21,330 bases of DNA from a virus. The notes below the pieces were generated by a model. The model was not told the DNA's origin. It saw nothing but the letters and a program-made list of their open reading frames with translations, and searched no databases. Where the stretch lies: the IMG/VR virus record IMGVR_UViG_3300004805_000044, positions 1 through 21,330 of that record. One strand, 5' to 3'. The translations under genes and the position numbers were made by a program. Position 1 is the stretch's first letter. Every line of letters starts with the position of its first letter. Shown here in pieces: positions 1 to 19,746 of the stretch.

Positions 1-2465
1 GCTTTAATATCAGTCTGGACATTACCATAAAAAAATATTTCATCTCCAAATGTATGTCCTGTTGTATTAGAATTTGGTGTTAATGTTATAAGATCACTTA
101 AATTATAATCATTATTTATTGTTTCTGTAAGTTTAGATTGATCTAAATTTATTCTTAATTTATTTATTGCGATGGCTGTATACATAGTTGATATTGGATT
201 ACCACCTAAACCACTTGCATCTAAATAAAATATAGATATTTGTGATGCATCTGCAGGTATAAATGTTAATTCTACACGTCTATCTGCTGTTGAACCTGTT
301 GGAAAAACATCATAGTTGTTGGAGCTAATTAATAATCCATTATAAAACAAATAAACAACACTATTATTAGGTTGTGTTTCCAACGCTAAAGATACTGTAG
401 ATCCCCGTAAATAAATTCCGTCTGAATATGTACTACCTGATGGAACACCACCAATAGGAACAATATAATCTTTTTTAAACGTACTTGCTGAAGTTGTATC
501 CCCAATAAGATAATGAAACTGAACTGTATATCCCATATTAAGTATTGCTGGATTGATCAGAATATCTGTTCTGTTTGGTGTGGTGGAAGTATATGTAAAA
601 TAATCACCATCTACGCCTATGGTTGTTCCTGTTGTTGCTTTTTTTAAAATTAATCCATTTAAAGATACTAATACATCACCAATTTCTTTATTTTTTAATG
701 TATAAGCATAATTAGTAAAACTATTTGGGTATATGGTTGCCTCAGTATAAAGCTCAAAATTATCACACAAATCTGAAGTTGAATCAATACATCCATTTGC
801 ACCAATATAACGACTAACGTTCATGTAATTCCAGGTGGTTGGATTTGGTTTCGCATTTTCTTGTGTTTTTTGCCATAACAATAACATATTATTGGTTTTA
901 AAACCATAACCGTTTGGATCTGTATAATTTTTCAAATAACTAAATTCACTATATGTCGGATCAGAATTATCATTAGGAAATTCAAAAACAACATCTTTAG
1001 GTGTTGTGGTTGTATTAGTTGCTGTAGCATAGTCCTCACATTGAATTCCAGTTAATCCTTTATCATCTTCAAAAAGATAAGTCAAATGTAATGATTCTCC
1101 CGTTTTAAGTATCCCAACTACACTAGAACCATTACAGACACCTGGTTCAATCAAGGTTAATTTTGGTTTTGGAAGCGTCCAATTTCTATTCGATTTATAG
1201 CACATTGCTGTTAAAAGTTCTTGATGTTCAATCAATATAATTTTTTCATTTATTAATACCTTTCCTACAATTGTTGGGTTTTTCTCCTGATCGATGAGAT
1301 TGTAATATTTTATATTTGTTGGCGTATTATGGACCTGTGTATCACATATAAATGTATAACCAATTTCATTAGCTAACCCCACACCATTAAATTGTTTTTT
1401 ATGCCACATTAAATATGGTATTTTCAATTTAAATGTATTGCTATAAAAACCTTCACCGTAAAAATTACTTACAGTATTATTTGTGTAATGAATAACACCG
1501 ACTTTATTTAAAGCATTTGTTGCAAAATAATCATAATTTATTGCTGTACCCCAATAATCTCTTGAGGTTGCAGTATATTTTCCCTTATAAGTTGTACTAT
1601 CAAGACCGATAATATCCTCAATTGTAATTATTGACATATTCCACACTGGGATATCATTTGGTACCTCAGTGCAGTTTGTCGTGAAATCTAATAAACCACT
1701 ACTCCAATAAGCAATTGGAATATCTTTATCATAATAATCCTTTATCGTGTTTATTCCAGGATAGATAAATGCGTTGAATTTATATGAATCAAATGATGGC
1801 ATATCCCTATCAACAGTTATTTCGATAGTTGTTCCTGTAGTAAACCCACTTATATCATAACTTGTATTTCCACTAACCTTTTGTATTACATACATTAAAT
1901 ACGGAATAGGATCTTTAGGTAAGTCATTTACAATTTGTGTTGTTCCACTATAAGTCGTTGTATAACCACTTGTAAGCATCTTGGTGAAGAGATAATCACC
2001 ACTTTTAATAACGGAGCTATAATTAGAATTGATGATTGATCCCGTGTTACATGTGATATATAAGGTACTTCCTGATGTATAACCAGTTAAATTACCCGCT
2101 AACCATAATGAACTATTTATTGTTATGCCAGTGGTTACACCTGTGGTAACACCACCTGCGGTATTATAATAAAAAAAACCTCTTTCTTTTGCCGATGCAT
2201 GAATTTCATTTGGATATGCACTCATTATTGAAATTGGAACTTTATATATACCACCTTCACTTGGGACGGGGTATTGGATATCGTGCGCATTATCAGCAGG
2301 TCTTAATATATTAATATTAGTTGGGTTGTCTGAACTATAGTCCATTTCGCCATCTCCAAGTCCAAAAGAGTTAAATTTAAGATTACCAGAGGCAATATTT
2401 TTTCTCCCTATATCAGTCAACTTTAAATTAACTAATGGTTCATTTTTTTTAATTATATAACTCAT
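1..2465 (-). CDS. Tail-fibre-like structural protein, 3' end beyond window
   Basis: The minus-strand frame opens with ATG at 2465 and stays open to base 1 (821 complete codons checked by reading triplets), so the stop lies outside the window. Residues ~11-43 (LTDIGRKNIASGNLKF, then GLGDGEMDY) resemble the N-terminal attachment region of phage tail-collar/fibre proteins of the DUF3751 type, which share a 'LT..G...ia.G..l.f...a.GdG' pattern. The rest is beta-rich with Gly/Thr-rich turns (GGVTTGVTTGIT) and no obvious catalytic motif. Near the visible end are two related modules about 106 residues apart, each with a Tyr/Leu-rich strand, an Asn-Gly turn (N603-G604 and N709-G710), a D/NY strand and a final hydrophobic strand ending in YL. 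This suggests a repeated fibre shaft or decoration domain. It starts 33 nt after the giant baseplate gene and belongs to the same operon. Role in host contact is inferred; the family is not certain. Confidence 0.8.
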   Translation of the reverse strand, partial: MSYIIKKNEPLVNLKLTDIGRKNIASGNLKFNSFGLGDGEMDYSSDNPTNINILRPADNAHDIQYPVPSEGGIYKVPISIMSAYPNEIHASAKERGFFYYNTAGGVTTGVTTGITINSSLWLAGNLTGYTSGSTLYITCNTGSIINSNYSSVIKSGDYLFTKMLTSGYTTTYSGTTQIVNDLPKDPIPYLMYVIQKVSGNTSYDISGFTTGTTIEITVDRDMPSFDSYKFNAFIYPGINTIKDYYDKDIPIAYWSSGLLDFTTNCTEVPNDIPVWNMSIITIEDIIGLDSTTYKGKYTATSRDYWGTAINYDYFATNALNKVGVIHYTNNTVSNFYGEGFYSNTFKLKIPYLMWHKKQFNGVGLANEIGYTFICDTQVHNTPTNIKYYNLIDQEKNPTIVGKVLINEKIILIEHQELLTAMCYKSNRNWTLPKPKLTLIEPGVCNGSSVVGILKTGESLHLTYLFEDDKGLTGIQCEDYATATNTTTTPKDVVFEFPNDNSDPTYSEFSYLKNYTDPNGYGFKTNNMLLLWQKTQENAKPNPTTWNYMNVSRYIGANGCIDSTSDLCDNFELYTEATIYPNSFTNYAYTLKNKEIGDVLVSLNGLILKKATTGTTIGVDGDYFTYTSTTPNRTDILINPAILNMGYTVQFHYLIGDTTSASTFKKDYIVPIGGVPSGSTYSDGIYLRGSTVSLALETQPNNSVVYLFYNGLLISSNNYDVFPTGSTADRRVELTFIPADASQISIFYLDASGLGGNPISTMYTAIAINKLRINLDQSKLTETINNDYNLSDLITLTPNSNTTGHTFGDEIFFYGNVQTDIK

Positions 2466-2498: not shown

Positions 2499-5400
2499 TT
2501 ATAATCCCACATTTTTAATATTTATCTTACTTACATCATATATTGAGGAATTTAAAATATTCGTGGTTGTGCCATCTTCAATACCTTTCAAGTTAATAAC
2601 TAATGTTGCGTTAGACGTAACACCTTTAATGGTTATTGTTCTTGTTTCAATTTGTGCTGAAGTACTTAATTCAGTTTTCAAGAAATTATTATCTACAGTA
2701 ACATTTTTTACATAAAGATCTAAATTATCCAATTTGGCTGATTTGAATTGTGTTTGTTTAGATTTAGTATCATATGAAATACTAATTACTAAATTAGTTC
2801 CTGGATTAACGTTAAGAGATTTATTAAATCCTTTCGTTGTTACATTATATGTCGTTGTCGTTGTATCAATACTATTTAAATCACTTGTTGTAATTAATAA
2901 ACTTGATGATGCTTGCGCTGTTGTCCCAACAACAACATTTACAATATATGAAAATGTTTCAGCTGTTTGCGGAACGGTAACTAGATTTGGAGAAAACATT
3001 ATCTGCCTATCAAGTTTAGTAACATCAGTGTCGAATAACAACCCAAATATTGTTGTTGCTACATGACCACATGGATTTGAAATTTTTAATTTACCCATAA
3101 ACTCACCAGTTAACGGATAACCAACAACATCCTTATCTACATAATAATCCATCCAAATATCATTTCCTACTTGTCTAAAATCAGCAGTACCTTGTTGTTC
3201 AACTGATATTCTATTACTATCTGTTACATCATAAAATTTATTTAATCCAGTCATCAACATATTATTAATATTGTTATCAGTTGTACCACTTCCGATAAAC
3301 GATCTATTTGTAAAACCAGTTTTTAATTCATGATTCGATTTGAACATGTATAGAGAATTTTTGACATCATCAGTTAAACTATTAATGGTTGATTCAAATA
3401 CAGTAACCTTTGTTCTGTCTTTATAAAAAGTAAAATTATTAACCAAACAAAAATCCCTTTCAATCCAATTATCAATGTCGGCATATGGTTGTATCCCACC
3501 AGTTGTTACTGTAAATCCAGTACCTACATATTTATACAATACACCCCTATTAACAACATATTTATTTCCCATATAAAGTGTGGTACCTGTATAAGTTGTG
3601 CCACTAACACTATTGTAAATACTATCAGTAATAAACCAATTTTTTGGATTATTCCTTTCTGTTGTTAAACAAAGTCTTTCGAATAACGGATAAATGCCTC
3701 GTGCTTCATTTGCTCTTGGGTGAGTAAAGTATGTGGTTGAATTTTCAGATGGTTTAATATATAAATTCGTTATTCCATATCTTGATGTACCATTTACATC
3801 ATTGTAGTTATCAGTTACCGAAGTGCCTGTTCCGTAACCAGTTGTAATTCCAGTATAAATTCCCGAAGTTCCTGGAAATCCAGCAGCTGCTGATCTATAT
3901 AAATTATATGTATTTATAACCTCGCCATTTGACAAATATGTATAAGCTGTATCCGTAAAATGTTTTAATGGTTGTAATATTTTATTCCATCTTCCAGCAG
4001 TTCCTGATGTACCAGCAGTTCCTGTTCCATTATTATTAATTTGTGGCATAATACTACCATTAAGACTAAGCACCAAGGTTTTTGGTAGTCTAACAGCTGT
4101 AGAACAATAATTTAAGTTAACTGTCGGATCTGGGATCCCAGGATGTGATGCTGATTCATATACACCATCAATAAGCCCATCCAATGCGCCACCGTATGTA
4201 CCAATAGATTTGTGATCAAAAATCAACGGACTTGGTAAAATTCTCCAGTTTGCGGTTGATCCGCTCGGAGTCGAATTCGTATTCCGTGTCCTTGCAACAT
4301 AAAACCTATATGTATTTGTGTTGCCTGTTGGGTAATATACAAATTCACCAGCTTGATATGTCTGACCTGAAACCCAGATTACATTCTTAGGATAAACATA
4401 TTTAAAATATTCATCATAATATTCTGTTGGAACAGTGGTTGAACCAGTGACTTTTGATATTAAAATGTCACCAAGTTGCCAATCAGTATAACCAGTTGTA
4501 CCATATGCAACTTCTTTTTTATTTATATAATCATATAAATTTGTGTTAGGCGTATTAAAGGATTTTAAATCCTCATAACCCCAAGGTGTAAAGTTGGTAG
4601 TATTATATTTCTCAATTTCGATAAAACACGATCTTGAACCTCTTGGTTGATAGATTTCGTGTATTTCGGATATAGTTGTTGCTGAAGTTGTAGCATCATA
4701 ATATTTTATGCAGTGTTCTGTGTGAATTTCATTTATACAAACATAAAGCTTATCTACCGTTTCAATTTGTATTGTATTACCACTTACGACTTTTTTATAG
4801 TTACCCACTGACACTTTAACAATATCATTAAGATTATAGTTGATTACTTGTGAATTAAACTGCGGCACGACATTCAATATGGCTTTATATATTTCGGTAT
4901 CATAGACGGCATTTTCCAAGGCGTAAAATCCAGTTGTTGTTCCAGTTGTTGAGACATAACGTCTTTTACTTTTTATTTCATTAAGAATATTATTAGAATA
5001 ATCAAGTCCAAGTGAATCCTTTAACCCACTATTTTGACTCTGGAATATAACGCCCGTTATTGTTGCGCCAGTACCCATTGCAACTTCATTATAAAAACTA
5101 TATTTTGGAATATAGTTAATAGTTCTCGTATGGTCAGAAAGTCTTTTGGATATAATTTTGCCAATTGAAATTGAGTTCGTCACGTCACTATTTTCTGTGA
5201 TCTTTATAGTATTTCCAAGGTGATAATCAATAAAGGTTAGATCTTTTTCGAAATCACTTGTTTCAAACCCAACGTTTATCGATCTGTTATTAATGATAGT
5301 AATCGAATTCGCAGGAATATTTGAATTTTTACTTCTTACTTTGAGGGTGAATGATATTTTATCAAAATTAATATTTTTATCATAACTTGTTACATCAGAT

Positions 5401-8400
5401 ATGAATTCTGTGGGTGCAAATTTATCATAATATGGTTTAAATAATTTATTAAACAGATAACTCGGTTCAGTATTATATTTAACATTAACTAGTGGAATAT
5501 TATTATATTTTCCATCTGCCGTATTAAGGATTAAATTAGATGTATCAAGATTGAGATCGTTATAAATTGGCTTGATTGAGAAACCCTCATCGAAATAACC
5601 ATTCTGAACATTACCAGTATTGAAGAAGACTCTAAATCTAGGATCGTTTAATTTAACATAATCTGTTTCGTTCGGATCGTCATGTAAATATTCAATTTTT
5701 TCATATCGTGATAAGGTACAATTCTGAGTAATTGGTTCAATTACAAGATAAATCTTTTCACCAGCATTAAAGAATCCTGAATATTGATATAGACGCTCTC
5801 TCAATGAAGCATCATCACTACCAGTGAATGAAATCATCTGTACATCGTATATTATTCCAGATGATCCTATTAGTTTTATGTTTACACTCTGTTCTGTATT
5901 CAATACAGATTCAAAATATAAATTAAAGTTAAAATTAAGGTAAGAATTCTTGATGATTTTATAGTAACCAGGATTTGAACTACCTAATGTTAAATCATCA
6001 CCAATTGTAACAAAATTATTATTAAGTGATTCAATGGATACATAATTATCCTTATCAGCAATGAGTTCTAATCTATCATTTAAAGTATGTGTGAAAATCT
6101 CTTCATCATTTGTTGTGTAGAAAGGACCTATTTTAGTTGAATCGATTGGATATAAACCATCGAATATAAGACTTATTGAATCTGATATAAACAATTCATT
6201 ATTAACAACATTATCTGCAACTCTAAATGTGGTTTGTGGTGTTGCGCCACTAAAAATATGTAATAATTTTAAAGATTGTGTTAAGTTTATTGAATATTTA
6301 TCAATTTTAGGGTCTAACTCAATATAAGAGATGTAGGCAGGATCAATATGCATAAAAGGATCTGTTCTCGTTCTTTCATCATATGTTTCATATAACCCAC
6401 CTGTTGTGCCTGTTGTAGTTGAACTTTCGGTACCAATAAGAGCTAACCCATCAATGACACTTATTGGGTAGGATGATGTTCCTGTAACGGTACTGCTAGT
6501 TACAATATAGATATTACTTGCCGAAACTGTTTTAGTAAAATCGGTAAGACTATTATTAGCTATTATTTCACCTTGATAGTATATTTTACCAACAACCCAT
6601 GAAAATCTTTTCTTATATGGAATTGTCCAGTTATATTTGTTACCATATAGAACACCTATTGATTTCAAACCATCCATATTTTTACTATATCCATAATATT
6701 TAGGTTGATTCAAAGTTAATGATGAACCAAACTCATCTATATAGGTTGCGTGAATTATTGGTGAAATACTACCTATGGTAACGCCAGTCATGTTATAATA
6801 ACAAACATGTGGTTTTGGTGGTGGACAATCATAATCTATTTGAATCCTAACATACGCCAATCCTCGTCCAATACTATTCATAAAGAATGATCGCAATTCA
6901 TCGCTTATCGTATATCCAATACCACCAATATAATCACTGAATGTGATGGTTCTCGAATCGGCATCTAACGATATTTTATCCCATATTTTATATTCGGTAC
7001 CACCAGATACAATATATGCACTATTTGGTGGGTATGCAGCAAATGATGTATCAGTATGAATTTCTTGATTTTTCCCAAATAAAGTCCATGTGTTTAATCT
7101 ATATAAATTATCATTATAAAACACAAAAACACCATATCTTGTTGCACCTGTTCCTGGTGTGTTAATATTTCCACCATAGGTTACATCAGCATAATCAATA
7201 CCAGATTCCCAAAGATAAAAACTACCTTCACTTTCATCGCAATAATCAAACATTGTGTAATAGACGCCAAAATATTCATTTACTGTCGGGTCAGTACCAC
7301 TTATTCTTGCACCAAGTTTAGCTTGAATAATATAAGGTTCAATTGTACCCTGTTTTGTTTCGCCTATTATACCAACATTTTCAATGGGGTTAATCGCACC
7401 AGACATAACAGGTTTTAATGCTTTTTGTTGAAATTCAGAACCATCTGTTCCCAACCATTCAACATCATTATTTAAACCATGTTTATATATGTGTTTGTTA
7501 TCCAAAAATATGGAATTTTGTATTTTATTACCAGCATTTATAATTGTAGTTGCTGGGACAAATTGCTCGATTAATTTTACCCACGATGTATCAAATTTAT
7601 TCAGAAATTCTAACGTTCTCATTGTCGTCATCGGATTTCCTAATGAAGCTAGATAATCAAAATACACTTTTGATAGAGTAGGATAAACCTTTATGGTTTT
7701 TCTATTTTTTGGGTTTATGAAATTATCTAAACATTTTTTTAAAAAAACATTAAAAGAAACATCCTTTGCATCAAATTTTAAAGAATCATCGATATTAAGA
7801 TCAATATTAACAACACCAATATTTCTAACATATTGTCTATAAATTGAAAGATCCTGAATCCTATTCGATCCAAGATAAACTTCAAACTCTTTTGAGTTGA
7901 TAGCTAAGTCTGAATGATCAATTGTGTATTCAGTGTAGCCATTTCTAATGTCTGATACATGATCAGTTATTTCTGTTGAATAGACCCACGATTTAACGTT
8001 ATCTACCGTTCTTTGAAGATCGAATAAAAAAACATTATTAAATTTTTTATACGCATTGATGTATGTTTTACCAAAATCAAATTCACCGACATTATATTTA
8101 TCTTCATATAGATACCCACCGTTTTGTTGAAAGTGAATTCCAATTGGTACAGTCGGGAAACCATTAATGTCAAATGGGACATTTTGTAATAATTGCGTTG
8201 GGTCATCTATTGTTGAGGTCTGGTATATTTTATTCAAACTATCAAGAACATCTAATTTTCTTTCGGCAACATAAATGTATTCATTTAAATCAAAAATATC
8301 ATCTGGAAGACCAACTAATTTTAATATAAATTCAATTGATTTTCTGGTACCTTTAGATTTGTATAGATAGAATGAATTTATCAAAATCCTTCTCCATAGT

Positions 8401-9947
8401 TCAATATCTATTTCGGCAGGTGTTGTACTTTTTTCAAGTGTCGTATTATTAAAATCAAATAATGATGCAATCAAAGTATCTTCATCTTGAATTTCATATG
8501 TTTTAAACCCAAGCATTGTTGCATAATTCTTAATAAGTAAATCAGGAACATTCTCGATTTTATTATAGCTCACATTTCTCATGAATGTAATGCCATCGAT
8601 GTATTTCTTAACTTCATCAAATGTTCGACCATATAACTCTAACAAAAGATTAAATTTCCTGTCTTCAGTATCATATTCTTTAAGTGAATCAGTTGTTAAA
8701 AATCTAGCAATAAGTTTAGTTTTGATGGTGTCATAGCTATCAGCGATATCATTTAATTTTGTTGTATATTTATCAAATTTATCTGAAAACATATCAATAT
8801 TAAAAATATCATATGTGGGGAAATAAATGATTTCTTTTACATTAGAGGTAATACCGTTATCCGCTAATTTTGGAAAAATAAATTCAGAAACAAAATTTCC
8901 ATTATCATCCACATTCAATAAGAATGAGGATAAGTCAGTTAAATTATCATAAAATAATTTAACAACTGAACTTTTTGGTTTTATAAAAAAATTAATATTT
9001 GCATTCCCAGAACTATATGTTGCAACCGAACTAAATGGATCACCTTGAACTGATAAGAAGATTCCCGTTATATCGTCATTTATATTGGTTGGAAGTTTAG
9101 CGTTAATAATTGGGTATTCAACACCATTATAGTAAATAACATAATCTTTAAATGTTTTTGAGAAATTCCTATATTTGGTTACAGTTTCACTATCAGTTAA
9201 AGTTTTCCCATTCACAGTATATTCTATATTAAATGGATTAGAAAGTGTATAAAGATTGACCTTAAAATCTGATCTATTTTCAAGAGAATATGTAATATAA
9301 TTTGTTACTGTTGGTATTGAAATAGAAACGGCCTGCGCTTTAATTGCTGCTGGGTAATTATTATATATCTCAATCAAAGAATTTTTTATTCTTTCTTTCA
9401 GTGAAGAATAAAGAACGTATTTATCAAGTTTTCTTTTATCAAATAAAACCTTAACCTTTATTTTTTCATCTACCCTGGCTTGTAATGTCGAAACGTATTC
9501 TTTACCTTTAAAATATGAAAGATTTCTGTTTGCAATATCTTCTACTGTGAAAGATTTAACAGCATTATTTTGTGCCGATTTCGGAGTTTCGGCTTGTCTT
9601 TGTTGTACTTCGCTATAATTAACACTTTTTTCAATACCAAAATTACCCAAGGTAAAAAATGGATCACCTTGTATTTCTGATTTACTATTCGCAAATTGGA
9701 GACCAACTAATTTGTCACCAAAAGTATCACTACCAAATGCACCGACTTTTCCTTGTAGGATAGTATATCTTAAAGCTTTTTCATATTGAACGAATGATGA
9801 ACATGGTACATATTTTGATTCACCGTTGATAATGTATACGCGATACCCACTACAACCAAGCTTTTTGGATGCTTTAATTGCCTCATCGGGTGTGTTATAT
9901 AAATCACGTATGATTTGATTGTTAGTAGTAAAAGTGAGATCAGCCAT
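2499..9947 (-). CDS. Giant baseplate protein: gpI/gp7-like wedge domain plus carbohydrate-binding-like modules
   Basis: A 2482-aa protein. Residues 1-110 include a paired-Cys segment (LGCSGYRVY then KYVPCSSF, C32 and C49). Residues ~395-560 match the pattern of P2 gpI/TIGR02242-type tail proteins: helices, then YATMLGF, then WRRILINSFYLYKSKGTRKS and a hydrophobic stretch ending in Gly-Leu-Pro. Structural work on T4 relates gpI to the core of gp7, the wedge partner of gp6 and gp25. Residues 789-820 (WVKLIEQFVPATTII, NKHIYKHGL) look like a conserved phage structural motif. From ~850 on it is beta-rich, with Gly/Thr linkers (residues 1176-1184, 1665-1674, 1974-1985) and at least four W/Y-G-Y-G-V segments resembling CBM5/12-type modules (~1105-1152, 1697-1742, 1855-1908, 2118-2165). 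T4 gp7 is only about 1030 aa, so this looks like a wedge protein fused to a long outer extension. The start ATG follows an AT-only leader with no Shine-Dalgarno. Coding is certain, wedge assignment likely, carbohydrate binding tentative. Confidence 0.85.
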   Translation of the reverse strand: MADLTFTTNNQIIRDLYNTPDEAIKASKKLGCSGYRVYIINGESKYVPCSSFVQYEKALRYTILQGKVGAFGSDTFGDKLVGLQFANSKSEIQGDPFFTLGNFGIEKSVNYSEVQQRQAETPKSAQNNAVKSFTVEDIANRNLSYFKGKEYVSTLQARVDEKIKVKVLFDKRKLDKYVLYSSLKERIKNSLIEIYNNYPAAIKAQAVSISIPTVTNYITYSLENRSDFKVNLYTLSNPFNIEYTVNGKTLTDSETVTKYRNFSKTFKDYVIYYNGVEYPIINAKLPTNINDDITGIFLSVQGDPFSSVATYSSGNANINFFIKPKSSVVKLFYDNLTDLSSFLLNVDDNGNFVSEFIFPKLADNGITSNVKEIIYFPTYDIFNIDMFSDKFDKYTTKLNDIADSYDTIKTKLIARFLTTDSLKEYDTEDRKFNLLLELYGRTFDEVKKYIDGITFMRNVSYNKIENVPDLLIKNYATMLGFKTYEIQDEDTLIASLFDFNNTTLEKSTTPAEIDIELWRRILINSFYLYKSKGTRKSIEFILKLVGLPDDIFDLNEYIYVAERKLDVLDSLNKIYQTSTIDDPTQLLQNVPFDINGFPTVPIGIHFQQNGGYLYEDKYNVGEFDFGKTYINAYKKFNNVFLFDLQRTVDNVKSWVYSTEITDHVSDIRNGYTEYTIDHSDLAINSKEFEVYLGSNRIQDLSIYRQYVRNIGVVNIDLNIDDSLKFDAKDVSFNVFLKKCLDNFINPKNRKTIKVYPTLSKVYFDYLASLGNPMTTMRTLEFLNKFDTSWVKLIEQFVPATTIINAGNKIQNSIFLDNKHIYKHGLNNDVEWLGTDGSEFQQKALKPVMSGAINPIENVGIIGETKQGTIEPYIIQAKLGARISGTDPTVNEYFGVYYTMFDYCDESEGSFYLWESGIDYADVTYGGNINTPGTGATRYGVFVFYNDNLYRLNTWTLFGKNQEIHTDTSFAAYPPNSAYIVSGGTEYKIWDKISLDADSRTITFSDYIGGIGYTISDELRSFFMNSIGRGLAYVRIQIDYDCPPPKPHVCYYNMTGVTIGSISPIIHATYIDEFGSSLTLNQPKYYGYSKNMDGLKSIGVLYGNKYNWTIPYKKRFSWVVGKIYYQGEIIANNSLTDFTKTVSASNIYIVTSSTVTGTSSYPISVIDGLALIGTESSTTTGTTGGLYETYDERTRTDPFMHIDPAYISYIELDPKIDKYSINLTQSLKLLHIFSGATPQTTFRVADNVVNNELFISDSISLIFDGLYPIDSTKIGPFYTTNDEEIFTHTLNDRLELIADKDNYVSIESLNNNFVTIGDDLTLGSSNPGYYKIIKNSYLNFNFNLYFESVLNTEQSVNIKLIGSSGIIYDVQMISFTGSDDASLRERLYQYSGFFNAGEKIYLVIEPITQNCTLSRYEKIEYLHDDPNETDYVKLNDPRFRVFFNTGNVQNGYFDEGFSIKPIYNDLNLDTSNLILNTADGKYNNIPLVNVKYNTEPSYLFNKLFKPYYDKFAPTEFISDVTSYDKNINFDKISFTLKVRSKNSNIPANSITIINNRSINVGFETSDFEKDLTFIDYHLGNTIKITENSDVTNSISIGKIISKRLSDHTRTINYIPKYSFYNEVAMGTGATITGVIFQSQNSGLKDSLGLDYSNNILNEIKSKRRYVSTTGTTTGFYALENAVYDTEIYKAILNVVPQFNSQVINYNLNDIVKVSVGNYKKVVSGNTIQIETVDKLYVCINEIHTEHCIKYYDATTSATTISEIHEIYQPRGSRSCFIEIEKYNTTNFTPWGYEDLKSFNTPNTNLYDYINKKEVAYGTTGYTDWQLGDILISKVTGSTTVPTEYYDEYFKYVYPKNVIWVSGQTYQAGEFVYYPTGNTNTYRFYVARTRNTNSTPSGSTANWRILPSPLIFDHKSIGTYGGALDGLIDGVYESASHPGIPDPTVNLNYCSTAVRLPKTLVLSLNGSIMPQINNNGTGTAGTSGTAGRWNKILQPLKHFTDTAYTYLSNGEVINTYNLYRSAAAGFPGTSGIYTGITTGYGTGTSVTDNYNDVNGTSRYGITNLYIKPSENSTTYFTHPRANEARGIYPLFERLCLTTERNNPKNWFITDSIYNSVSGTTYTGTTLYMGNKYVVNRGVLYKYVGTGFTVTTGGIQPYADIDNWIERDFCLVNNFTFYKDRTKVTVFESTINSLTDDVKNSLYMFKSNHELKTGFTNRSFIGSGTTDNNINNMLMTGLNKFYDVTDSNRISVEQQGTADFRQVGNDIWMDYYVDKDVVGYPLTGEFMGKLKISNPCGHVATTIFGLLFDTDVTKLDRQIMFSPNLVTVPQTAETFSYIVNVVVGTTAQASSSLLITTSDLNSIDTTTTTYNVTTKGFNKSLNVNPGTNLVISISYDTKSKQTQFKSAKLDNLDLYVKNVTVDNNFLKTELSTSAQIETRTITIKGVTSNATLVINLKGIEDGTTTNILNSSIYDVSKINIKNVGL
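3994..4024 (-). repeat. Short 18-nt-period direct repeat coding a Gly/Thr/Ala linker
   Basis: The 13-mer CCAGCAGTTCCTG occurs at 3994-4006 and again at 4012-4024 (plus-strand reading), an 18-nt period. It encodes the GTAGTSGTAG part of residues 1974-1985 of the giant baseplate protein. It is most simply a flexible linker between beta domains. Such short in-frame repeats can change copy number by slippage without breaking the frame, but nothing here shows that this happens. Confidence 0.6.
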
Positions 9948-9985: not shown

Positions 9986-10885
9986 TTATTTAACTATATT
10001 CTTTAAATCCGACGTATGATCAATGTTTGTGCGTTTTATTCTCATTTCAAATAATTTCTTATCAACACTATCTCTAATTTCATATAGATCATATTGAGCG
10101 AAAATATTTCCATCATCATCATAGAGAGAATAAATACCCGAATCTATATTTTTACTTTGATTTCCATATAATGCAACTGCTAGACTTTCGATATCATAAT
10201 TTACCATTTCCACTTCAATTATTTGTGGTGAAAAATTGGTATTGGTTATAATTACATTCTGACCAATCTTTCCGATATATGGTGTTGATGTTGGTTTAAA
10301 GCTTGGTGCCGCATTTGGGGTGACTGTACAAAATAATTTTGACCCATTACTATAATAGATATATTTTACTGCTTTCTGTGAGGAATTAGCGGTTTGTACA
10401 TTTGTTGGTTCTGATAGAAATGAAGATGTTACAATTCTATATAAATTCGGAATTTTAGTACCATCATTATTAAGATATTCAATTCTATATCCATCCAGGC
10501 CATTATTTACAAATTTATTAATAAAATTAACTGGTGCCGTACTAACATCGAAGACTAAACCTTTTATATCAGGGAAAGTCGCCAATTCAGCACAATCATT
10601 AATGGGTATTCTTATTTGTGTAGGTCTAATATATACTGTATAAAACCCTTTTATAGCAAATATTGTTTTAGGTAACGTTAAATTATATAACCCACCTAAT
10701 ATTTCTAGATCTGTTCCACCTAATGCCGTTGTGCTCATTACTGGCTTGATGGCATCCACACCGTTTAATTTAGTGACAGTTTGTGTTTCTGTCGAATTTC
10801 TTGTTTTTGAATATAGAACAATAACTTCTATATCACTTGGATCGACATCTGCCGCCCTTTTTACTCCAAATTGACCTATTGACAT
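9986..10885 (-). CDS. Putative baseplate/tail structural protein, 299 aa, unknown family
   Basis: Family not recognised. The protein is soluble-looking, beta-rich and Asn/Ile-rich, with no signal peptide or membrane segment. Features seen: an N-terminal MSIGQFGVKRA segment, a proline-centred segment (FYTVYIRPTQIRIPIND, about residues 82-98), and a C-terminal part with DDDGNIFAQYDLYEIRDS followed by a basic tail. It begins 3 nt after the stop of the 218-aa gene and ends 38 nt before the giant wedge-like gene, so it is made with the baseplate set. A role as a small wedge or fibre-connector protein is inferred from position only. The start is ATG at 10885, directly after ATATAAATA; no ribosome-binding sequence is visible. 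Confidence 0.75.
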   Translation of the reverse strand: MSIGQFGVKRAADVDPSDIEVIVLYSKTRNSTETQTVTKLNGVDAIKPVMSTTALGGTDLEILGGLYNLTLPKTIFAIKGFYTVYIRPTQIRIPINDCAELATFPDIKGLVFDVSTAPVNFINKFVNNGLDGYRIEYLNNDGTKIPNLYRIVTSSFLSEPTNVQTANSSQKAVKYIYYSNGSKLFCTVTPNAAPSFKPTSTPYIGKIGQNVIITNTNFSPQIIEVEMVNYDIESLAVALYGNQSKNIDSGIYSLYDDDGNIFAQYDLYEIRDSVDKKLFEMRIKRTNIDHTSDLKNIVK

Positions 10886-10888
10886 TAT

Positions 10889-11545
10889 TTATATGTTTTT
10901 AAAATTATAACCTTTTTTATTTATTTTATAAAATCCGAGACCTATCTTAGTTAATTCGTTAATGTCTCTGACATTCTTTAGTCTTTTTATCTTTTCGAAT
11001 GCACTATTTAAACCTCTATCTATAAATACTTCACTTACGATTTTTGGTTCTTCAACAATACCTTCAAAATATACAACATAAGGTAGATTCGCTTCGTCTA
11101 TATTTGTTTTTTTATAAGTAAATATACTCATTCCATTATCTAAATCAATGTATTTTATTGGATTTTGTGTGTCCAAATATAGAACATACTCATTACCAAT
11201 ACCATCCAATGTTTCTTTTAATATCATAGCCGAACTATTCAAGCCAGGTAAATCAAATTTTATCATTGTTCTATTTTCACTAAACAGACTTACAGATGTT
11301 TTATCTGCGTATTTTATAATCAAATCAAACTTTGAGTCTGTGGTACCTGTAACAAAAATACCATGTTTAAAATGTTCAATAATTTGATCATATGTTGACA
11401 CGTTTAGGTCAGAATTATTTACTATTGCTTCAATTGCAACTATTGTTGGATCATAAGTTGCATCGATACAAGACCCAGGTATTATAGTATTACTTTCTAA
11501 TAGTATTGGTATCACCAAATCAGATGAGGCTATTTTTACTTCCAT
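10889..11545 (-). CDS. Putative structural protein, 218 aa, unknown family
   Basis: No family assigned with confidence. The first two thirds are beta-rich with short acidic loops. The C-terminal ~50 residues (SEVFIDRGLNSAFEKIKRL, then INELTKIGLGFYKI) read like a helical cap with a conserved 'F.dRG....E...RL' pattern that I associate with small virion proteins of large phages; this is a memory-based resemblance, not a search result. The first 26 nt of the gene overlap the end of the 655-aa gene in another frame, so its translation is probably coupled to that gene. It is followed after 3 nt by the 299-aa gene. The position inside the baseplate operon suggests a minor baseplate or tail role. Confidence 0.75.
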   Translation of the reverse strand: MEVKIASSDLVIPILLESNTIIPGSCIDATYDPTIVAIEAIVNNSDLNVSTYDQIIEHFKHGIFVTGTTDSKFDLIIKYADKTSVSLFSENRTMIKFDLPGLNSSAMILKETLDGIGNEYVLYLDTQNPIKYIDLDNGMSIFTYKKTNIDEANLPYVVYFEGIVEEPKIVSEVFIDRGLNSAFEKIKRLKNVRDINELTKIGLGFYKINKKGYNFKNI

Positions 11546-13487
11546 TTGTCTTTATATTTCTATTTACAACATTATTTTTTATATGGACACCACAATTAAT
11601 TGGGATTATAACATCTTTCACATCATTATTATCGTTTGTAATTGACATAACAGCGTTTCCTTTCATATATAATTGTGAAATTCCCCAGAGACGTGCAATT
11701 ACATTTACACCAATATATAAATCTAAATTTAAACTCATAACTTCATTTGGTGTAAAGTATACATCATCCCCACAACGACAACTTAATACTGACTCAATAA
11801 GATAACTCCTAGGCTCATATAATAACACCTGCGATGGTAGACCAAGATCAATGCCAATATTTTCGGGTGTGAGATATTTATTCTGAATAGTTGTGTTTAA
11901 AAAATCAATTTTAACATTGTTTATAAAAGTCTCCAAATATTTTGCTGAAACTGCATCAAAAAAACGATTATAGATTGAAATATCGCTAAATGTTGATTTC
12001 TCCTTAAAATAACTTTTTAATACATTTTGTTGATTTAAAATTTCAGATGGCACCACACCCACGATAGATACGAGAGCTTCAGACGTTTTATATTTAACCT
12101 TATCATTATATAGTGATTGATTATGACTATAAAATACATTATTATAAGTATTAAATTCAGTAGAGAATTCAACATCTTTTAAAAATAGTCTTCTAATCTT
12201 CCAGTTTACAGTATCAATATTTTTAGCCGTAAATGTCATAATTTCTTGATGCATGCCAAAACCATTACCATTAAATAAAGGAATCTGAAATTGTGAAATT
12301 TCTTTTGATTCTAAATTTATAAAACTCTCAGCTTTTTCTACACTAAATTTAATTGGGTTATCGGTTGCCGATTTTAAGACTACAATTTTTTCAACATAAT
12401 CAATCGGTGTCGCATTTATTACTGGATTCTTTACCCAAAATTCATCAAAAAATACTTGATACAAATCAAACGAACTTCTTTCATGATCATACTCATTGGT
12501 AGTTGTGTTATACTCGTATATTTTGTAAGATTTTTCAACGGTATTCATTTTATATTTTAAGTACCTATTTTCTTGTTTAAAGTTATTCAAATCCAAAAAC
12601 CACTTTTTTGCAGTTTCTTGTTCTGATGATGGAACTAATTGTATTTTATTTGAGTTCAGTGCATCCCAAAAAGATATTTTCACATAAAGTTCAGTATTAG
12701 GATAATCTTTTAAAAATAAGAAAGCGTAGCCTTCGAAACCTTCGGATAATTCAAACGCTGGTCTTTCTGTTATTACTGAATTCCCATTAATAAATTCGAA
12801 TAAATTTGTATCTTTATTAACAAAAACTGGTATTGAAAACAGTCTGATTTGTGATTCAGCTAACGGTGAATCAAAAAATTCAAAAAGTAAAAATGAATAA
12901 TAAAAATATGGTTTATCTTTAAATAACAAACTTTCATTTATCCACAAATCTTTTTTATCCCAGAACGGAATAACAAAAGAATTGTAGAAAATTGGCAAAC
13001 CATTTACTTGGGGTCTTAAATATGACATGGACGCAACAGGATTACTAACAACATAAGGTTTATTCGATAACTGGTCAAATCTACTCATACCAACTTCCCC
13101 CCTTAATTCGGGTTCGAGTATCCCCGAAGGTTGTCTAATTTGAAAAGGGTCTCCGAAAGATTTTTGTGCTACAACACCAGTTTCATCTATTAAACCAAAA
13201 GCCTCTTTTGTTTTAGTAATATGTGAAATAAATGCACTTTCTGTGTAACCCGTTACTTCATTTAATTCATTATCTTTGAAGTGTCTTAAAAAAAATACAT
13301 TAAAATTAATTTTACTATAAGTTGGTTGATATTCTACTACTTCAGAATCAACAACGCCATTAATTGCCAGAGTTTTACCTAAATCTAATAATTTACTATT
13401 ATAAAAATCCCTATCTGAAGAATAATCTTCGGATGTTATACCCAAATTAAATTTAGTGTTGTTTGTCGGTATAGTAGACTTTAGCAT
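11520..13487 (-). CDS. Putative baseplate-associated structural protein, 655 aa, unknown family
   Basis: Not recognised at family level. The sequence is rich in Phe/Tyr and Asn/Lys, mostly beta with few long helices, and has no signal peptide or membrane span. Visible marks: a GDPF motif at residues 112-115 followed by a Pro/Gly/Glu-rich loop (QPSGILEPELRGEVG), an aromatic block at ~190-206 (KPYFYYSFLLFEFF), and a C-terminal SCRCGDD segment (C570, C572) with another Cys at ~632. The paired cysteines could bind metal or be buried structurally. The gene starts inside the last codons of the 558-aa gene (ATGCTAA, 7-nt overlap) and its 3' end overlaps the 218-aa gene by 26 nt. By position it takes the slot of T4 gp8-gp11-type wedge proteins, but no homology to those is visible to me. 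Confidence 0.8.
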   Translation of the reverse strand: MLKSTIPTNNTKFNLGITSEDYSSDRDFYNSKLLDLGKTLAINGVVDSEVVEYQPTYSKINFNVFFLRHFKDNELNEVTGYTESAFISHITKTKEAFGLIDETGVVAQKSFGDPFQIRQPSGILEPELRGEVGMSRFDQLSNKPYVVSNPVASMSYLRPQVNGLPIFYNSFVIPFWDKKDLWINESLLFKDKPYFYYSFLLFEFFDSPLAESQIRLFSIPVFVNKDTNLFEFINGNSVITERPAFELSEGFEGYAFLFLKDYPNTELYVKISFWDALNSNKIQLVPSSEQETAKKWFLDLNNFKQENRYLKYKMNTVEKSYKIYEYNTTTNEYDHERSSFDLYQVFFDEFWVKNPVINATPIDYVEKIVVLKSATDNPIKFSVEKAESFINLESKEISQFQIPLFNGNGFGMHQEIMTFTAKNIDTVNWKIRRLFLKDVEFSTEFNTYNNVFYSHNQSLYNDKVKYKTSEALVSIVGVVPSEILNQQNVLKSYFKEKSTFSDISIYNRFFDAVSAKYLETFINNVKIDFLNTTIQNKYLTPENIGIDLGLPSQVLLYEPRSYLIESVLSCRCGDDVYFTPNEVMSLNLDLYIGVNVIARLWGISQLYMKGNAVMSITNDNNDVKDVIIPINCGVHIKNNVVNRNIKTNGSKNSLI

Positions 13488-15157
13488 TTTGTTTGTGTAT
13501 ATTTAGCATATGGTTTAGTCTCTTCAGCGTTGGCATTATCCAGACCATTATCTTTATTATTTTCCATCAATTGATTTCCATTAGTAATATCATTTTGATT
13601 CAACATATATTTTTTTGTGTTCCAAGATTCAGTTTTTACAAAAAAATTAATATCACTATACACATAAAAAGATCCATTCATGAAAGGTAAATCAACACCA
13701 TTTCCATTTTCATCCATAATACCCACATCAAAAATATCTCTCCATATAAATTTTTCACTTTGTTTACTATATATCGCATAATCTGGAATACTATATGTTG
13801 TATCACTATCCTCTATATATGGTGATTCGTGTTTTATTTTAACTTTATAAAATGGTTGATATGAAAATATAATATCTTTATGTAAAAATCTATGTTGTAT
13901 TTTAGTTATCTCAACCTCTGTCAATGCTTCTGTTGTATTTTCACACAATGAATGGTAAAAAACATCCCCAACAGCAATCCGTCTTGATGGTTTATTTTTA
14001 TTGTCTGTTATTTTTTCTAATCCGTCATTTTCGGCTAATTTATTAATATAATTTTCAAAATATGATTCTGTATTGCTGAATATTGTATTATCTTTAGTAC
14101 CAATCTTGATAATACCAATATAGATATCTGTCAGAGGAATACCTTTGTTGTTAACTAACCCTGTTATTTCAAGATCTTCATCAAAAATAAAATTCTTTAT
14201 TTTTTGTTCAAAATTATTAATCGAAAATGCCGAATCTGAAAAATCGTCAATGATACCAATTACTTCAAGAGTTTTTATATAATATTCAAGTTTTTCTTTT
14301 TCAATAACTTTTGATACATAAAATTCAGGATTATTGATCAGCTTTTGTCTTGACCTTGTTCTACTAAAATTGGGTGATGGATTCTCTTCATATATTAAAC
14401 CATTTATTAATATCTGATTATTTTTAATATCAGTAGCAGTTTTTTCAATCTTATAGTCAACTATTTTATTAAGATCCGTTGTATTATTTTTAGTTGATGG
14501 TGCGGTACTTGTGTTCACATGCATAATGTATGCTGGAGCATTTATATAAACTTTATCCCCAACTACATTTAAAATATCATATATTTTATTTTCCCAATCT
14601 TTTTTATTAACTCCCTCAACATATGCTCTATCACCTTCAACAAAATTATGACCAAATGGGAAATATAAAACAAAACTACTTTCAACCGTAGGTGAATAAT
14701 ATAACCTTGCTGGTAAGCCTTTTATAAAATTTAACGTTAATTTATCCTCAATGGTACCATCACTTATATTTGTTATCAATTTATTACCTTTTTGGTATAT
14801 TATTTCATTGTTAGATGTAATACTTGTCGTTGGTATTCTCTTGGGTTGTAATATAACAATAGACCAATTATCAGTGTTCATGTCAAATATATCTTTTCGG
14901 ATATTAACTTTAGAGTTATCTATAATTGTGTTTCTATAAACATCAAAATTAATGATTGGGTTAATTTTACCATATATTCTTATCTTTGAACAATTCTGTT
15001 TTTCAAAATCATATTGGTCTTGTTGATTAACATCCATAAATAAATTATATTCATACCTAATCTTATTTGGGGAAGAGAACATAATTCTTGTTGATAGATC
15101 AGTCTGTGAAGATCCAGCAATTTTTTTTTCACCTAATATTTCAACTATATCACTCAT
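13481..15157 (-). CDS. Putative baseplate/tail structural protein, 558 aa
   Basis: Unknown family, clearly coding. Segments worth noting: FPFGHNFVEGDRAYVEGV (residues ~166-183), which looks like a beta-barrel or ligand-loop of the 'HN...GD.v.i.G' type common in phage structural proteins; EITGLVNNKGIPLTDIYIGI (~330-349), which has the shape of the first strands of a carboxypeptidase-regulatory-like beta-sandwich; and WRDIFDVGIMDENGNG with PFMNGSFYVYSDINFF (~472-506), a 'G.gv..PF.NG..Y....I.F' pattern I associate with tail proteins of large phages. The C-terminal ~30 residues are Asn/Lys/Glu-rich and probably disordered, ending in Cys. The start ATG overlaps the TGA of the preceding gene (ATGA, 4 nt), a classic coupling junction. 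Its role is inferred from the operon. Confidence 0.8.
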   Translation of the reverse strand: MSDIVEILGEKKIAGSSQTDLSTRIMFSSPNKIRYEYNLFMDVNQQDQYDFEKQNCSKIRIYGKINPIINFDVYRNTIIDNSKVNIRKDIFDMNTDNWSIVILQPKRIPTTSITSNNEIIYQKGNKLITNISDGTIEDKLTLNFIKGLPARLYYSPTVESSFVLYFPFGHNFVEGDRAYVEGVNKKDWENKIYDILNVVGDKVYINAPAYIMHVNTSTAPSTKNNTTDLNKIVDYKIEKTATDIKNNQILINGLIYEENPSPNFSRTRSRQKLINNPEFYVSKVIEKEKLEYYIKTLEVIGIIDDFSDSAFSINNFEQKIKNFIFDEDLEITGLVNNKGIPLTDIYIGIIKIGTKDNTIFSNTESYFENYINKLAENDGLEKITDNKNKPSRRIAVGDVFYHSLCENTTEALTEVEITKIQHRFLHKDIIFSYQPFYKVKIKHESPYIEDSDTTYSIPDYAIYSKQSEKFIWRDIFDVGIMDENGNGVDLPFMNGSFYVYSDINFFVKTESWNTKKYMLNQNDITNGNQLMENNKDNGLDNANAEETKPYAKYTQTKC

Positions 15158-17508
15158 TTTATAAAATAATTAGTACTGATGTCATATAAGGCATTTGAAC
15201 CTTTCCAAAGACCAAAATAATAATATTTACCATTATATGCATTATTATCAATGACCACTGTCGGTGTAACAATATTACCAGTGGTTTGTATTAAATCAAT
15301 TTGTTTTTTATTTTCAACGTGTATTTTACTAGTGTCAATCGTAAGATTAATGGTTGTTGGTGTAATATTCCCAACAATACCACCTTTATTGTAGGAAGAA
15401 TATACTTCATCTTTTATAAGATTAGGCAAATCGTCGCTAATATCTACTATTGAAATTTCCATTAAAGGTATTTTACTTTGACCTTCTCTGCAATTAATAA
15501 ATAACCCAAATGTATAGTTAGGCGAAACGGCTTGATTGTAAGCCTTCTGGACGTTGAATGCATTTGCATTGGACACTTTACTCTTTGCCGTCTCAACTGC
15601 GAACAGCGACGCTCTAAATGCGTTTAGAGAGTTATCACCATAATTCCATGTTTCGTGTTTACCAAATATATTTACTGCTGGTATGATTGTTACCATATTG
15701 TTTGTCGAATCGAATGTAAATGTTTGTGGTATCATAAAATCATCAGCGCTAAATATAGCTTCAAATACATCACCAGAATTTTCACCACCTTCTTTTTGAA
15801 CACCAAGACCAAAAAGATATTCACATAAATTAATATTTTCTTCGTATGTGAGACTTTTATCTATTGATGGAATACTCATAATGCTATTTGGTGTTCCAAA
15901 ATAATCTTTTTTCTCGTTCCCATTAATATAAATTCTCGGAAATAGTATCGATCCAATAATTTCTGGATCAGAGTCAGTCGGTAAATGGTCGGAAGAATAT
16001 GGAAAATTCCAAAAAGCACTCGCTTTATTTTGATTAAATTTGGGGAAGTATCTTATACTATTTCCTGGCATATTAACCCGATCTGATGAATGTTTATAGT
16101 GTTTTGTTTTTATTGTGTAAAATTTTCTTTTCCTATTTTTAATATCATATTCAAATAAACTACTTCCATTCCACCCACCAAGTTCAGGGTCACCATCAAT
16201 TGTTGAGGGAATTCTTGCGCCTGGTAGTAATCCGTTAATAAAACCTCCGAAAGCACTTCTTCTTCCATTAAATTTTTCATTTATATCATAAATTTCAAAA
16301 GAATAATAAGCTTTCGTTGGGACACCAATAGTCGTATCCTTTGTTGGGATTAAATCACCAAATTCATTAACAGTATAGTAGTCCATATACATAGGTAAGC
16401 TAACTCTAAATACACCACTATATCTTGATGCTTTAAATACGCCTAATCTAACCCTACTTCCTGTTGTTAAATTTCTATCTAATCGGTATACAACAACCTC
16501 TATCTCTTGAAAAGGGTATATATCGCCCGTACTTGTTTTTGTTACATCATCTTCAGCTATTATTTCGGGATCTTGTTTATTATTTGTGTATTTATATTCC
16601 AAATCAATACCAAATCCACCAGTCGGTGCATGCAAATATCCAAAAAATATTGCTGTTGGTGTGTAATTAAAGTTGATTTTAAAATCACACCTGGTTATTC
16701 CCACATCACAAAAATCATCGTCACCCCAAAATGGAGAAACCGTAATTTGTCTTGTCTCGTGAAATATGTTTGGCATATCATCTATATTAGTTACAACATC
16801 AACGTCATAATTATTATTTCCATGATAAATAAAACCAGGTACCCGATACGGATCAACTGATTCTTGTTGTGTTTGACCTGTATAAACAGATGAATTTATA
16901 AATTGCCTTAAATCTTCAACGCTTTTATTGAGAGTCTGTTGTTCAACCAAATCATTAGCTGTTAGATCAAATGATTTAGTATCAAGGACATCAAAATCCA
17001 TTATGATATCTTGTTGACCAACAGGAACACCAAAAATGATATAATCACCAGATTCGTTTGTGGTAGTTGTGTATTTGTAATATTTATCCATTATCTCAAG
17101 AGTCTGCGGATAATGAATAAAATCTGTTTCATCAGGAAAATTACCTATCGCCCTATGGCTCAAATTTTTTTTATTTCGTATTCTAGGAAATAGATTATAT
17201 CTAACACCATTTGGATAAGTATCATATACAGTTTCAAATGGATATAATTCTTTTATTTCTGGTCTATCCAGATCGTCAACTGTTATTGGTATGAATATAT
17301 TTACTTTAGCATTTTGTGCACCAAACCCACCATTTAACAAAACCCTTCCAGCGATGACACCAAAATCAGAACATTGTCTCGTGTACATATCAGAACTTGA
17401 TATCTTTAAAGTAAGAACTTCAAGATTGTCAAATTCTTGTTCAAGTTTTAAATGAATAGTTTTATCATCAGATGTTAAATCTATGGGTATCCTTATATTT
17501 CTTTCCAT
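15154..17508 (-). CDS. Baseplate structural protein with carboxypeptidase-regulatory-like domain, 784 aa
   Basis: The gene directly follows gp6 (TAATG, 1-nt overlap), the place where T4 carries gene 7. The N-terminal ~45 residues are a short beta region. Residues ~48-175 fit a CarboxypepD-reg/Cna-B-like sandwich: GVIAGRVLLNGGFGAQNAKV with strand NIFIPI, then TTNESGDYIIFGVPVGQQDI, the usual 'T..dG.Y.f..vp.G' ending. About 70 residues (DRPEIKELYPFETVYDTYPN and on) are inserted between the two halves. A D/W/C-rich stretch follows (FWGDDDFCDVGITRCDF, C267 and C274). The remainder is beta-rich with aromatic, Gly and Pro turns and a SGDVFEAIFSADD segment. No enzyme motif is seen. Such domains usually act as stable spacer or adhesive modules in virion proteins. 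Position implies a wedge or inner-baseplate part; homology to T4 gp7 is not evident. Confidence 0.85.
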   Translation of the reverse strand: MERNIRIPIDLTSDDKTIHLKLEQEFDNLEVLTLKISSSDMYTRQCSDFGVIAGRVLLNGGFGAQNAKVNIFIPITVDDLDRPEIKELYPFETVYDTYPNGVRYNLFPRIRNKKNLSHRAIGNFPDETDFIHYPQTLEIMDKYYKYTTTTNESGDYIIFGVPVGQQDIIMDFDVLDTKSFDLTANDLVEQQTLNKSVEDLRQFINSSVYTGQTQQESVDPYRVPGFIYHGNNNYDVDVVTNIDDMPNIFHETRQITVSPFWGDDDFCDVGITRCDFKINFNYTPTAIFFGYLHAPTGGFGIDLEYKYTNNKQDPEIIAEDDVTKTSTGDIYPFQEIEVVVYRLDRNLTTGSRVRLGVFKASRYSGVFRVSLPMYMDYYTVNEFGDLIPTKDTTIGVPTKAYYSFEIYDINEKFNGRRSAFGGFINGLLPGARIPSTIDGDPELGGWNGSSLFEYDIKNRKRKFYTIKTKHYKHSSDRVNMPGNSIRYFPKFNQNKASAFWNFPYSSDHLPTDSDPEIIGSILFPRIYINGNEKKDYFGTPNSIMSIPSIDKSLTYEENINLCEYLFGLGVQKEGGENSGDVFEAIFSADDFMIPQTFTFDSTNNMVTIIPAVNIFGKHETWNYGDNSLNAFRASLFAVETAKSKVSNANAFNVQKAYNQAVSPNYTFGLFINCREGQSKIPLMEISIVDISDDLPNLIKDEVYSSYNKGGIVGNITPTTINLTIDTSKIHVENKKQIDLIQTTGNIVTPTVVIDNNAYNGKYYYFGLWKGSNALYDISTNYFIK

Positions 17509-19329: not shown

Positions 19330-19746
19330 TTAAAAAGTTAAAGTGACAGTACTTGATGATTCAAACGTTCTTGATTGAACCGTATAGTCTATTTTAATTG
19401 TAATTGTATGATGACTTTTATCATCAGTAAGATATTCAATCTTATCGTAATAAGTAGTTATATTTATTTTGTTTATTTTTAGATTGGGAATGAAATTCTC
19501 ACATGCAGCGTTTATTTCATCTTCAATTTTTAACATAAGTTCTTCACTCATGGGTTCAAAAATATACTGATATAGATTGGTACCGAATTCTGGCATGAAA
19601 TATCTACTACCTTTTTTTGTAAGCAGTAGATGTACTAAGTTGGCTTTGATTTCTCTTTCTGGTATTTCGGTTAACCCAAGATAATCGCCGTTATTACTAT
19701 TAACAAACGGGAAATTAATCCCAAATGTCTTCTTTCTTATATCCAT
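19330..19746 (-). CDS. 25: Baseplate wedge protein, gp25/gpW (lysozyme-like fold) family
   Basis: A 138-aa protein, the usual length for T4 gp25 (132 aa). Seen in order: an N-terminal hydrophobic start (KKTFGINFPF), the helix EIKANLVHLLLTKKGSRYFM, the family hallmark PEFGTNLYQYIFEPMSEE (residues 52-69), a helix LKIEDEINAACENFIP ending in the strand NLKINKINI, then two beta strands. The E-F-G segment is the part that binds the gp6 core bundle and lets gp25 nucleate sheath assembly. It is the first gene of the tail operon, 87 nt after the helicase stop, and is followed by gp6 after 4 nt. The start ATG at 19746 has no upstream Shine-Dalgarno. No alternative in-frame start improves the family alignment. 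Confidence 0.95.
   Translation of the reverse strand: MDIRKKTFGINFPFVNSNNGDYLGLTEIPEREIKANLVHLLLTKKGSRYFMPEFGTNLYQYIFEPMSEELMLKIEDEINAACENFIPNLKINKINITTYYDKIEYLTDDKSHHTITIKIDYTVQSRTFESSSTVTLTF

Follow-up and report, generated by a model that had tools for sequence, protein, structure and literature searches.

A 2482-residue protein with a probable gpI/gp7-type wedge core and a clade-specific C-terminal extension in an uncultured contractile-tailed phage

Introduction

Known gp7-like subunits of contractile tails range from 176 residues (gpI of phage P2) and 242 residues (gp17 of Vibrio phage XM1) up to about 1000 residues (gp7 of T4). The virus record IMGVR_UViG_3300004805_000044 of IMG/VR, analysed here over its whole 21.3 kb (21,330 nucleotides, referred to as the window), carries an open reading frame (ORF) whose product has a gpI/gp7-like signature near its N terminus and is 2482 amino acids (aa) long. 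An original prediction made from the window held that a wedge core is fused to a giant receptor-facing extension and that one polypeptide may cover what several T4 proteins do. Taken as a whole that interpretation is partly supported. The protein is probably a gpI/gp7 wedge subunit and would work like one. The reading preferred here, at a probability of about 0.72, is that it is a gpI/gp7-type wedge subunit of a large uncultured contractile-tailed phage, with an extension of about 1650 residues that would lie on the outside as peripheral baseplate or fibre dock.

A giant reading frame kept whole in relatives

The frame was confirmed as a single ORF with an ATG start, and at 2482 aa against 1032 aa its product is indeed more than twice as long as T4 gp7. 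Full-chain relatives are encoded by the genomes G002 (2510 aa, 57% identity) and G008 (2442 aa) and by two cut contigs. The extension (residues ~826-2482) can be aligned end to end among members of this giant clade, and a scan of IMG/VR with that alignment (A4) gave 47 loci. In all 46 loci examined the extension is in frame with the core containing the KGT motif (27 complete ORFs of 1919-2686 aa), and in none of them is it a stand-alone gene. The layout shared with 27 complete ORFs in relatives shows that the giant ORF did not arise from faulty assembly or a frameshift, and a chimeric contig is likewise ruled out by the identical fused frame in 46 loci. The loci include identical and near-identical contigs, and their numbers therefore do not stand for numbers of independent lineages.

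The N-terminal part belongs to a large and mostly unannotated family whose products are labelled "hypothetical" in every annotated record found. In a three-sequence search with a profile hidden Markov model (HMM), the core (residues ~395-560) proved to have homologues encoded at the corresponding place in the operons of the phages Mel-JY01 (E 2e-8) and immuto (E 2e-6). A 1400-aa protein of the genome LR756508 matches it as well (E 2e-4), and in IMG/VR the matching stretches number at least 508. Among 80 loci kept, 56 have complete ORFs, and most of these (45) are 984-1134 aa long; of the others, two fall below this range, four measure 1229-1506 aa and five 1927-2526 aa. The original prediction had placed the conserved part at residues 395-560. 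These residues are conserved, but the interval is too narrow, as alignments extend the shared part to residues 1-~825, beyond which the ~1000-aa members have a short variable tail. Among named phages, tblastn detected no match to the full protein or to a short relative, a scan of genome contigs with a short relative also gave none, and PDB sequence searches with the core, a short relative and the full-family profile gave no relevant one.

The gpI-like core and its place in the operon

The predicted helical gpI/gp7-like signature (residues ~395-560, positions 8765-8268) is real. Within it, residues 462-557 follow a 12-sequence profile of P2 gpI in exact two-part register, LL..LA..lG and then R..I..s..l.K.KGT..si..il...G, with KSKGT at residues 530-534. 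The profile comparison with P2 gpI that had been proposed as a check yielded a match: hhalign of the family profile against gpI gave a score of 34.4 (E 2e-4 for this one comparison), whereas 100 column-shuffled controls, run with the end columns fixed, reached at most 21.8. The hhalign E-values refer to single comparisons and were judged against shuffled controls. A few shuffled controls that scored 130-135 over 5-13 columns (three of 150 in one run, one of which belongs to a further run too, and one of 60 in another) are edge artefacts at an all-gap alignment end, and the fixed-end repeat of the gpI control contained none. P2 gpI itself has a homologue in pyocin PA0619 (E 1.6e-39), and the pyocin module (PA0618)2-PA0619 corresponds to the wedge module (gp6)2-gp7 of T4 (PMC10457771).

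The operon position agrees with this assignment. The order on the minus strand is helicase (with an intein), gp25, gp6, five genes here called X1-X5, the 2482-aa protein and Y1. The gp25 and gp6 genes named in the original prediction are both present, recognised by PF04965 (E 1.5e-13) and by Baseplate_J and phrog_219, respectively. By tblastn the window gp6 matches an immuto protein annotated as baseplate wedge protein, Mel-JY01 and the 484-kb genome LR756508. The arrangement of gp25, gp6 and, further on, the wedge gene is kept across relatives, distant lineages included. The window and its relatives thus both have the linkage to gp25 and gp6 homologues within a single operon that marks gp7/gpI genes, with five genes intervening between gp6 and the giant wedge gene and more structural-looking genes after it.

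Several results weigh against a wedge subunit with an outer extension. No model in Pfam, NCBIfam or PHROGs matches the 2482-aa protein above threshold. T4 gp7 aligns with the family profile over one motif of 22-45 columns, in which the KG motif of T4 gp7 (YSTKGIEASYKFLFKLLY) aligns with KSKGT, and the score of 29.5 was equalled by two of 100 controls, so the match is not decisive. A second conserved block that closes the shared part was considered as the C terminus of gpI and gave no significant profile match. There is also a marginal trace of the gp6 N-terminal helical domain at residues ~400-440 (PF21379, E 0.15). Finally, the function that may be assigned to the extension draws on precedent and on the weak carbohydrate-binding matches described below.

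The gpI and T4 gp7 profiles also fail to find each other, so failure of sequence comparison with T4 gp7 says little. The gp6-like and gp7-like proteins have a helix-turn-helix in common (PMC10457771), and a weak PF21379 match on a gp7-type protein would therefore be expected. PF09684 (Tail_P2_I) produced two matches in 17 records, of 12.7 and 11.2 bits, both on the wedge protein family at the KGT region; its curated cut-off (20.6 bits) was not reached in these records and the window protein itself was not matched. TIGR02242, a phage-tail domain model, appears sub-threshold among family members together with PF09684.

That every curated-model match is sub-threshold and the T4 gp7 match marginal is what would be seen if the protein were some other large baseplate component with a chance KGT-containing helical motif. 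This is quite improbable, because the gpI match lies far outside the controls in its full two-part register and the position in a gp25-gp6 operon recurs in distant lineages. A clear gpI/gp7 gene elsewhere, which would speak for such a component, was not found in the 17 records searched with PF09684 or in the 11 searched with the T4 gp7 profile; both searches have low sensitivity, since the same models hardly see the wedge family. The original claim of a gpI/gp7-type wedge part near the N terminus, fused to a very large C-terminal extension, is supported by the gpI profile match and the fused frame.

The extension of the window clade

The extension is under purifying selection yet evolves faster than the core. 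For five pairs of giants the ratio of nonsynonymous to synonymous substitution rates (dN/dS) was 0.04-0.07 in the core. The extension, taken as three segments, gave 0.06-0.20, so that constraint there is usually about twice or more as loose. Its composition also differs from that of the core, with more G, T and S and fewer helix-favouring residues.

The original prediction of adhesive modules found limited backing. Two segments resemble modules of carbohydrate-binding module families 5 and 12 (CBM5/12; WV.G..Y..GE), but the matches are weak and none exceeds a curated threshold. In the PDB the extension profile matches All3316 best (E 0.18), a protein that belongs to the contractile injection system of Anabaena. 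Two sequences of the deacetylase DA1 match the profile at E 7.7, and the part of DA1 matched is a chitin-binding module. PF02839 is seen in one of nine extension members (E 0.027) and reaches its cut-off in none of the nine. The CBM5/12-like matches are leads rather than identifications.

Comparison with neighbouring genes of relatives by BLAST, HMM and profile-profile methods revealed no homology to the window extension. A fusion with the relatives' separate D1/D2, c15, c18, Y1, X3 or X4 genes was considered and rejected, as the profile comparisons gave either trivial matches or scores like those of the controls. Y1 did match over 28 columns (score 24.2, the highest of 10 shuffles being 17.1), but this match was set aside as too small. 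No match to peripheral baseplate proteins of the gp8/gp10/gp11 type was found in Pfam, PHROGs or the PDB, although the diversity within such families is so great that sequence methods could miss a relationship.

It is rather unlikely, though worth weighing, that the wedge core is correctly identified and that the extension is mainly an internal scaffold or brace of the baseplate without receptor contact, with fibres and adhesins supplied by separate downstream genes. Separate genes do lie downstream, Y1 and its paralogues among them. In the extension no adhesin or receptor-binding domain is recognised above threshold, and purifying selection on it is clear. However, the G/T/S-rich and helix-poor composition, the weak CBM5/12-like segments and the faster evolution suit an exposed part better.

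A second giant clade and gene fusion

Wedge proteins of 3012 and 2989 aa are encoded in the genomes G013 and G014 (loci L044 and L045). Their core is about 30% identical to that of the window protein, and their extensions are unrelated to the window extension. Residues ~1924-2835 of these proteins are homologous to a separate gene of 1258-1307 aa that sits directly after the 1055-1134-aa wedge gene in four short-form genomes (L050, L051, L054 and L062), with 22-25% identity over ~650-950 residues (E 1e-21 to 1e-32). In G015 and G020, c18 and Y1 come after the separate gene. In G013 and G014 the separate gene is gone from its place, and c18 and then Y1 follow the wedge gene immediately. The sequence comparison clearly points to an origin of the G013/G014 giant by fusion with the adjacent gene, or to fission if the giant is older.

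In a tree of the shared part, obtained by a quick method and with long outgroup branches, the window giants form one clade of 26 (Shimodaira-Hasegawa-like approximate likelihood ratio test, SH-aLRT, 99) and G013 and G014 stand in another branch with short forms (SH-aLRT 99). Because the tree places the giants apart and their extensions are non-homologous, giant size was gained independently at least twice. Tentatively, the gp7-type subunit may repeatedly absorb neighbouring peripheral genes, so that a chain of 2500-3000 residues would combine the wedge core with host-facing baseplate; the window clade would be one of at least two cases.

An additional gene of G013 (1111 aa, loci L233/L234), which lies downstream of Y1 and has a 1059-aa counterpart in G014, encodes a stretch of about 100-150 residues that recurs at residues ~984-1131 of that phage's own giant wedge protein, a domain used twice.

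The fusion in G013 and G014 also bears on the boldest part of the original prediction, in which one giant polypeptide replaces several peripheral baseplate proteins and combines the functions of gp7 with those of gp8, gp10 and gp11. Part of the G013/G014 extension is homologous to the adjoining separate gene of the short forms, a gene absent from its place in G013 and G014, and the window clade too has no separate gene of that family beside its wedge gene. On the other side, the window extension matches no separate neighbour by any of the methods above and no peripheral baseplate protein in the libraries, and X1-X5, which stand between gp6 and the giant gene, remain candidates for the gp8/gp10/gp11 roles, with structural-looking genes following as well. 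That one chain covers all of these parts is an unlikely reading for the window protein.

Proposed role and comparison with known systems

In the preferred reading, that of a wedge subunit with an outer extension, residues ~395-560 would pair with two gp6 chains, as do T4 gp7, pyocin PA0619 and XM1 gp17, and so build the scaffold of the wedge next to gp25. The extension would project from the outer, lateral side of the wedge. Since this is where gp7-like subunits dock tail fibres, the extension would serve either to dock fibres or as a portion of the peripheral baseplate, and it may touch surface glycans. The wedge role, outer position, fibre docking and glycan contact are what we infer from gene position and precedent.

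The closest comparison is with P2 gpI and PA0619 (PF09684), which have the same pattern, LL..LA..lG and then R..I..s...h.KGT..a...v...G. The P2 gene likewise comes after the homologues of gp25 (W) and gp6 (J). P2 gpI has 176 aa and extends hardly beyond the core, whereas the window core lies within a family part of ~825 aa followed by ~1650 aa of extension, and the match is at profile level. T4 gp7 (1032 aa) resembles the family in size, most members being ~1000 aa, and in lying downstream of gp6; it differs in following gp6 directly rather than after five genes and in having no giant extension. At the opposite extreme of the same role is the minimal XM1 gp17 (242 aa), the gp7 ortholog in a (gp6-like)2-gp7-like wedge that is tied to tail-spike binding (PMC10457771). 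The gp7-like part of Alg12, Afp12 and Pvc12 lies exposed on the lateral side, where it binds fibres, and has been described as a hotspot of re-engineering (PMC8894135), and Anabaena Cis12 bears an extension absent from AFP (PMC8894136). These proteins are likened to the window protein by description only; the window has gp6 as a gene of its own, and its extension lies at the C terminus and is far longer.

Among phages with homologous proteins, Mel-JY01 (a Microcystis phage; WWT39511, 1336 aa), immuto (a Flavobacterium phage; gp109, 1265 aa) and LR756508 (the 1400-aa ORF) have the core, KGT and the second block in the place after gp25 and gp6. Their proteins are hypothetical or unannotated and have no giant extension. 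Immuto is a cultured relative with the short form, whereas the analysis met no isolate that has the giant form. For the proteins of this family labelled "hypothetical" the comparison provides a likely role. The family has a norm of ~1000 aa and two giant clades of independent origin, one of ~2500 aa and the other of ~3000 aa. In one case relatives retain the fused part as an adjoining gene, which makes it possible to ask directly how a conserved contraction machine acquires new outer parts of its baseplate.

Features and neighbouring genes

Table 1. Positions in the window of the giant wedge gene, its segments and the neighbouring operon genes
Feature	Residues	Positions	Strand	Basis
Giant wedge protein, 2482 aa, ATG start		2499..9947	-	ORF list; kept full length in relatives
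Part common to the whole family (most members ~1000 aa)	1-~825	7473..9947	-	Alignments; dN/dS 0.04-0.07
P2 gpI / Tail_P2_I-like signature	462-557	8277..8564	-	hhalign; PF09684 and TIGR02242 sub-threshold in family
KSKGT motif (KGT invariant in family)	530-534	8346..8360	-	Alignment
Second conserved block (YP.L..Y ... PAT....G), closes shared part	~735-825	7473..7745	-	Alignment
Clade-specific extension (~1650 aa)	~826-2482	2502..7472	-	Alignment A4; this clade only; dN/dS 0.06-0.20
CPPPKPHVCYY motif (P.P.PH.C invariant in nine members)	1041-1051	6795..6827	-	Alignment
CBM5/12-like segment 1 (weak)	~1117-1150	6498..6599	-	Deacetylase DA1 chains, E 7.7
CBM5/12-like segment 2 (weak)	1858-1905	4233..4376	-	All3316 chain, E 0.18; PF02839
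Conserved C-terminal block of extension	2176-2306	3030..3422	-	Alignment
gp25-like sheath initiator / wedge gene		19330..19746	-	PF04965, E 1.5e-13
gp6 / Baseplate_J-like wedge gene		17508..19325	-	phrog_219, E 3.9e-12; tblastn to immuto, Mel-JY01, LR756508
Operon genes X1-X5 (784, 558, 655, 218 and 299 aa)		9986..17508	-	Order kept in relatives
Next gene Y1 (821+ aa, cut by window end)		3..2465	-	ORF list and neighbourhood comparison

The gene upstream of gp25 encodes a DnaB-like helicase (19834-21330, minus strand; phrog_19, 2.7e-29) and is cut by the window end. Its intein contains a LAGLIDADG domain (PF14528, 6.9e-6) and terminates in HN before STLLTK. The helicases of G002 and G010 are ~470 aa long and align only with the post-intein part of the window helicase; in these two genomes two extra genes intervene before gp25, which directly follows the helicase in the window.

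Within the operon, X1 and X2 are separate in the window and in G009 and form a single 1287-aa ORF in G007 (L028, 1092-4955, plus strand). That ORF has 86% and 79% identity to the two G009 proteins; either the genes have fused or their boundary was erased by an error in sequencing. The X4 family includes a gene of 218 aa in the window and genes of 2991 aa (L242, G015) and 2918 aa (L246, G020) in phages with short wedge proteins, so within this operon very large size is not confined to the wedge gene. The Y1 family is multicopy in Mel-JY01 and immuto, with six copies in Mel-JY01 by clustering, and the N terminus of the window Y1 (VNLKLTDIGRKNIASG...GLGDGEMDY) resembles an attachment domain common to fibre proteins.
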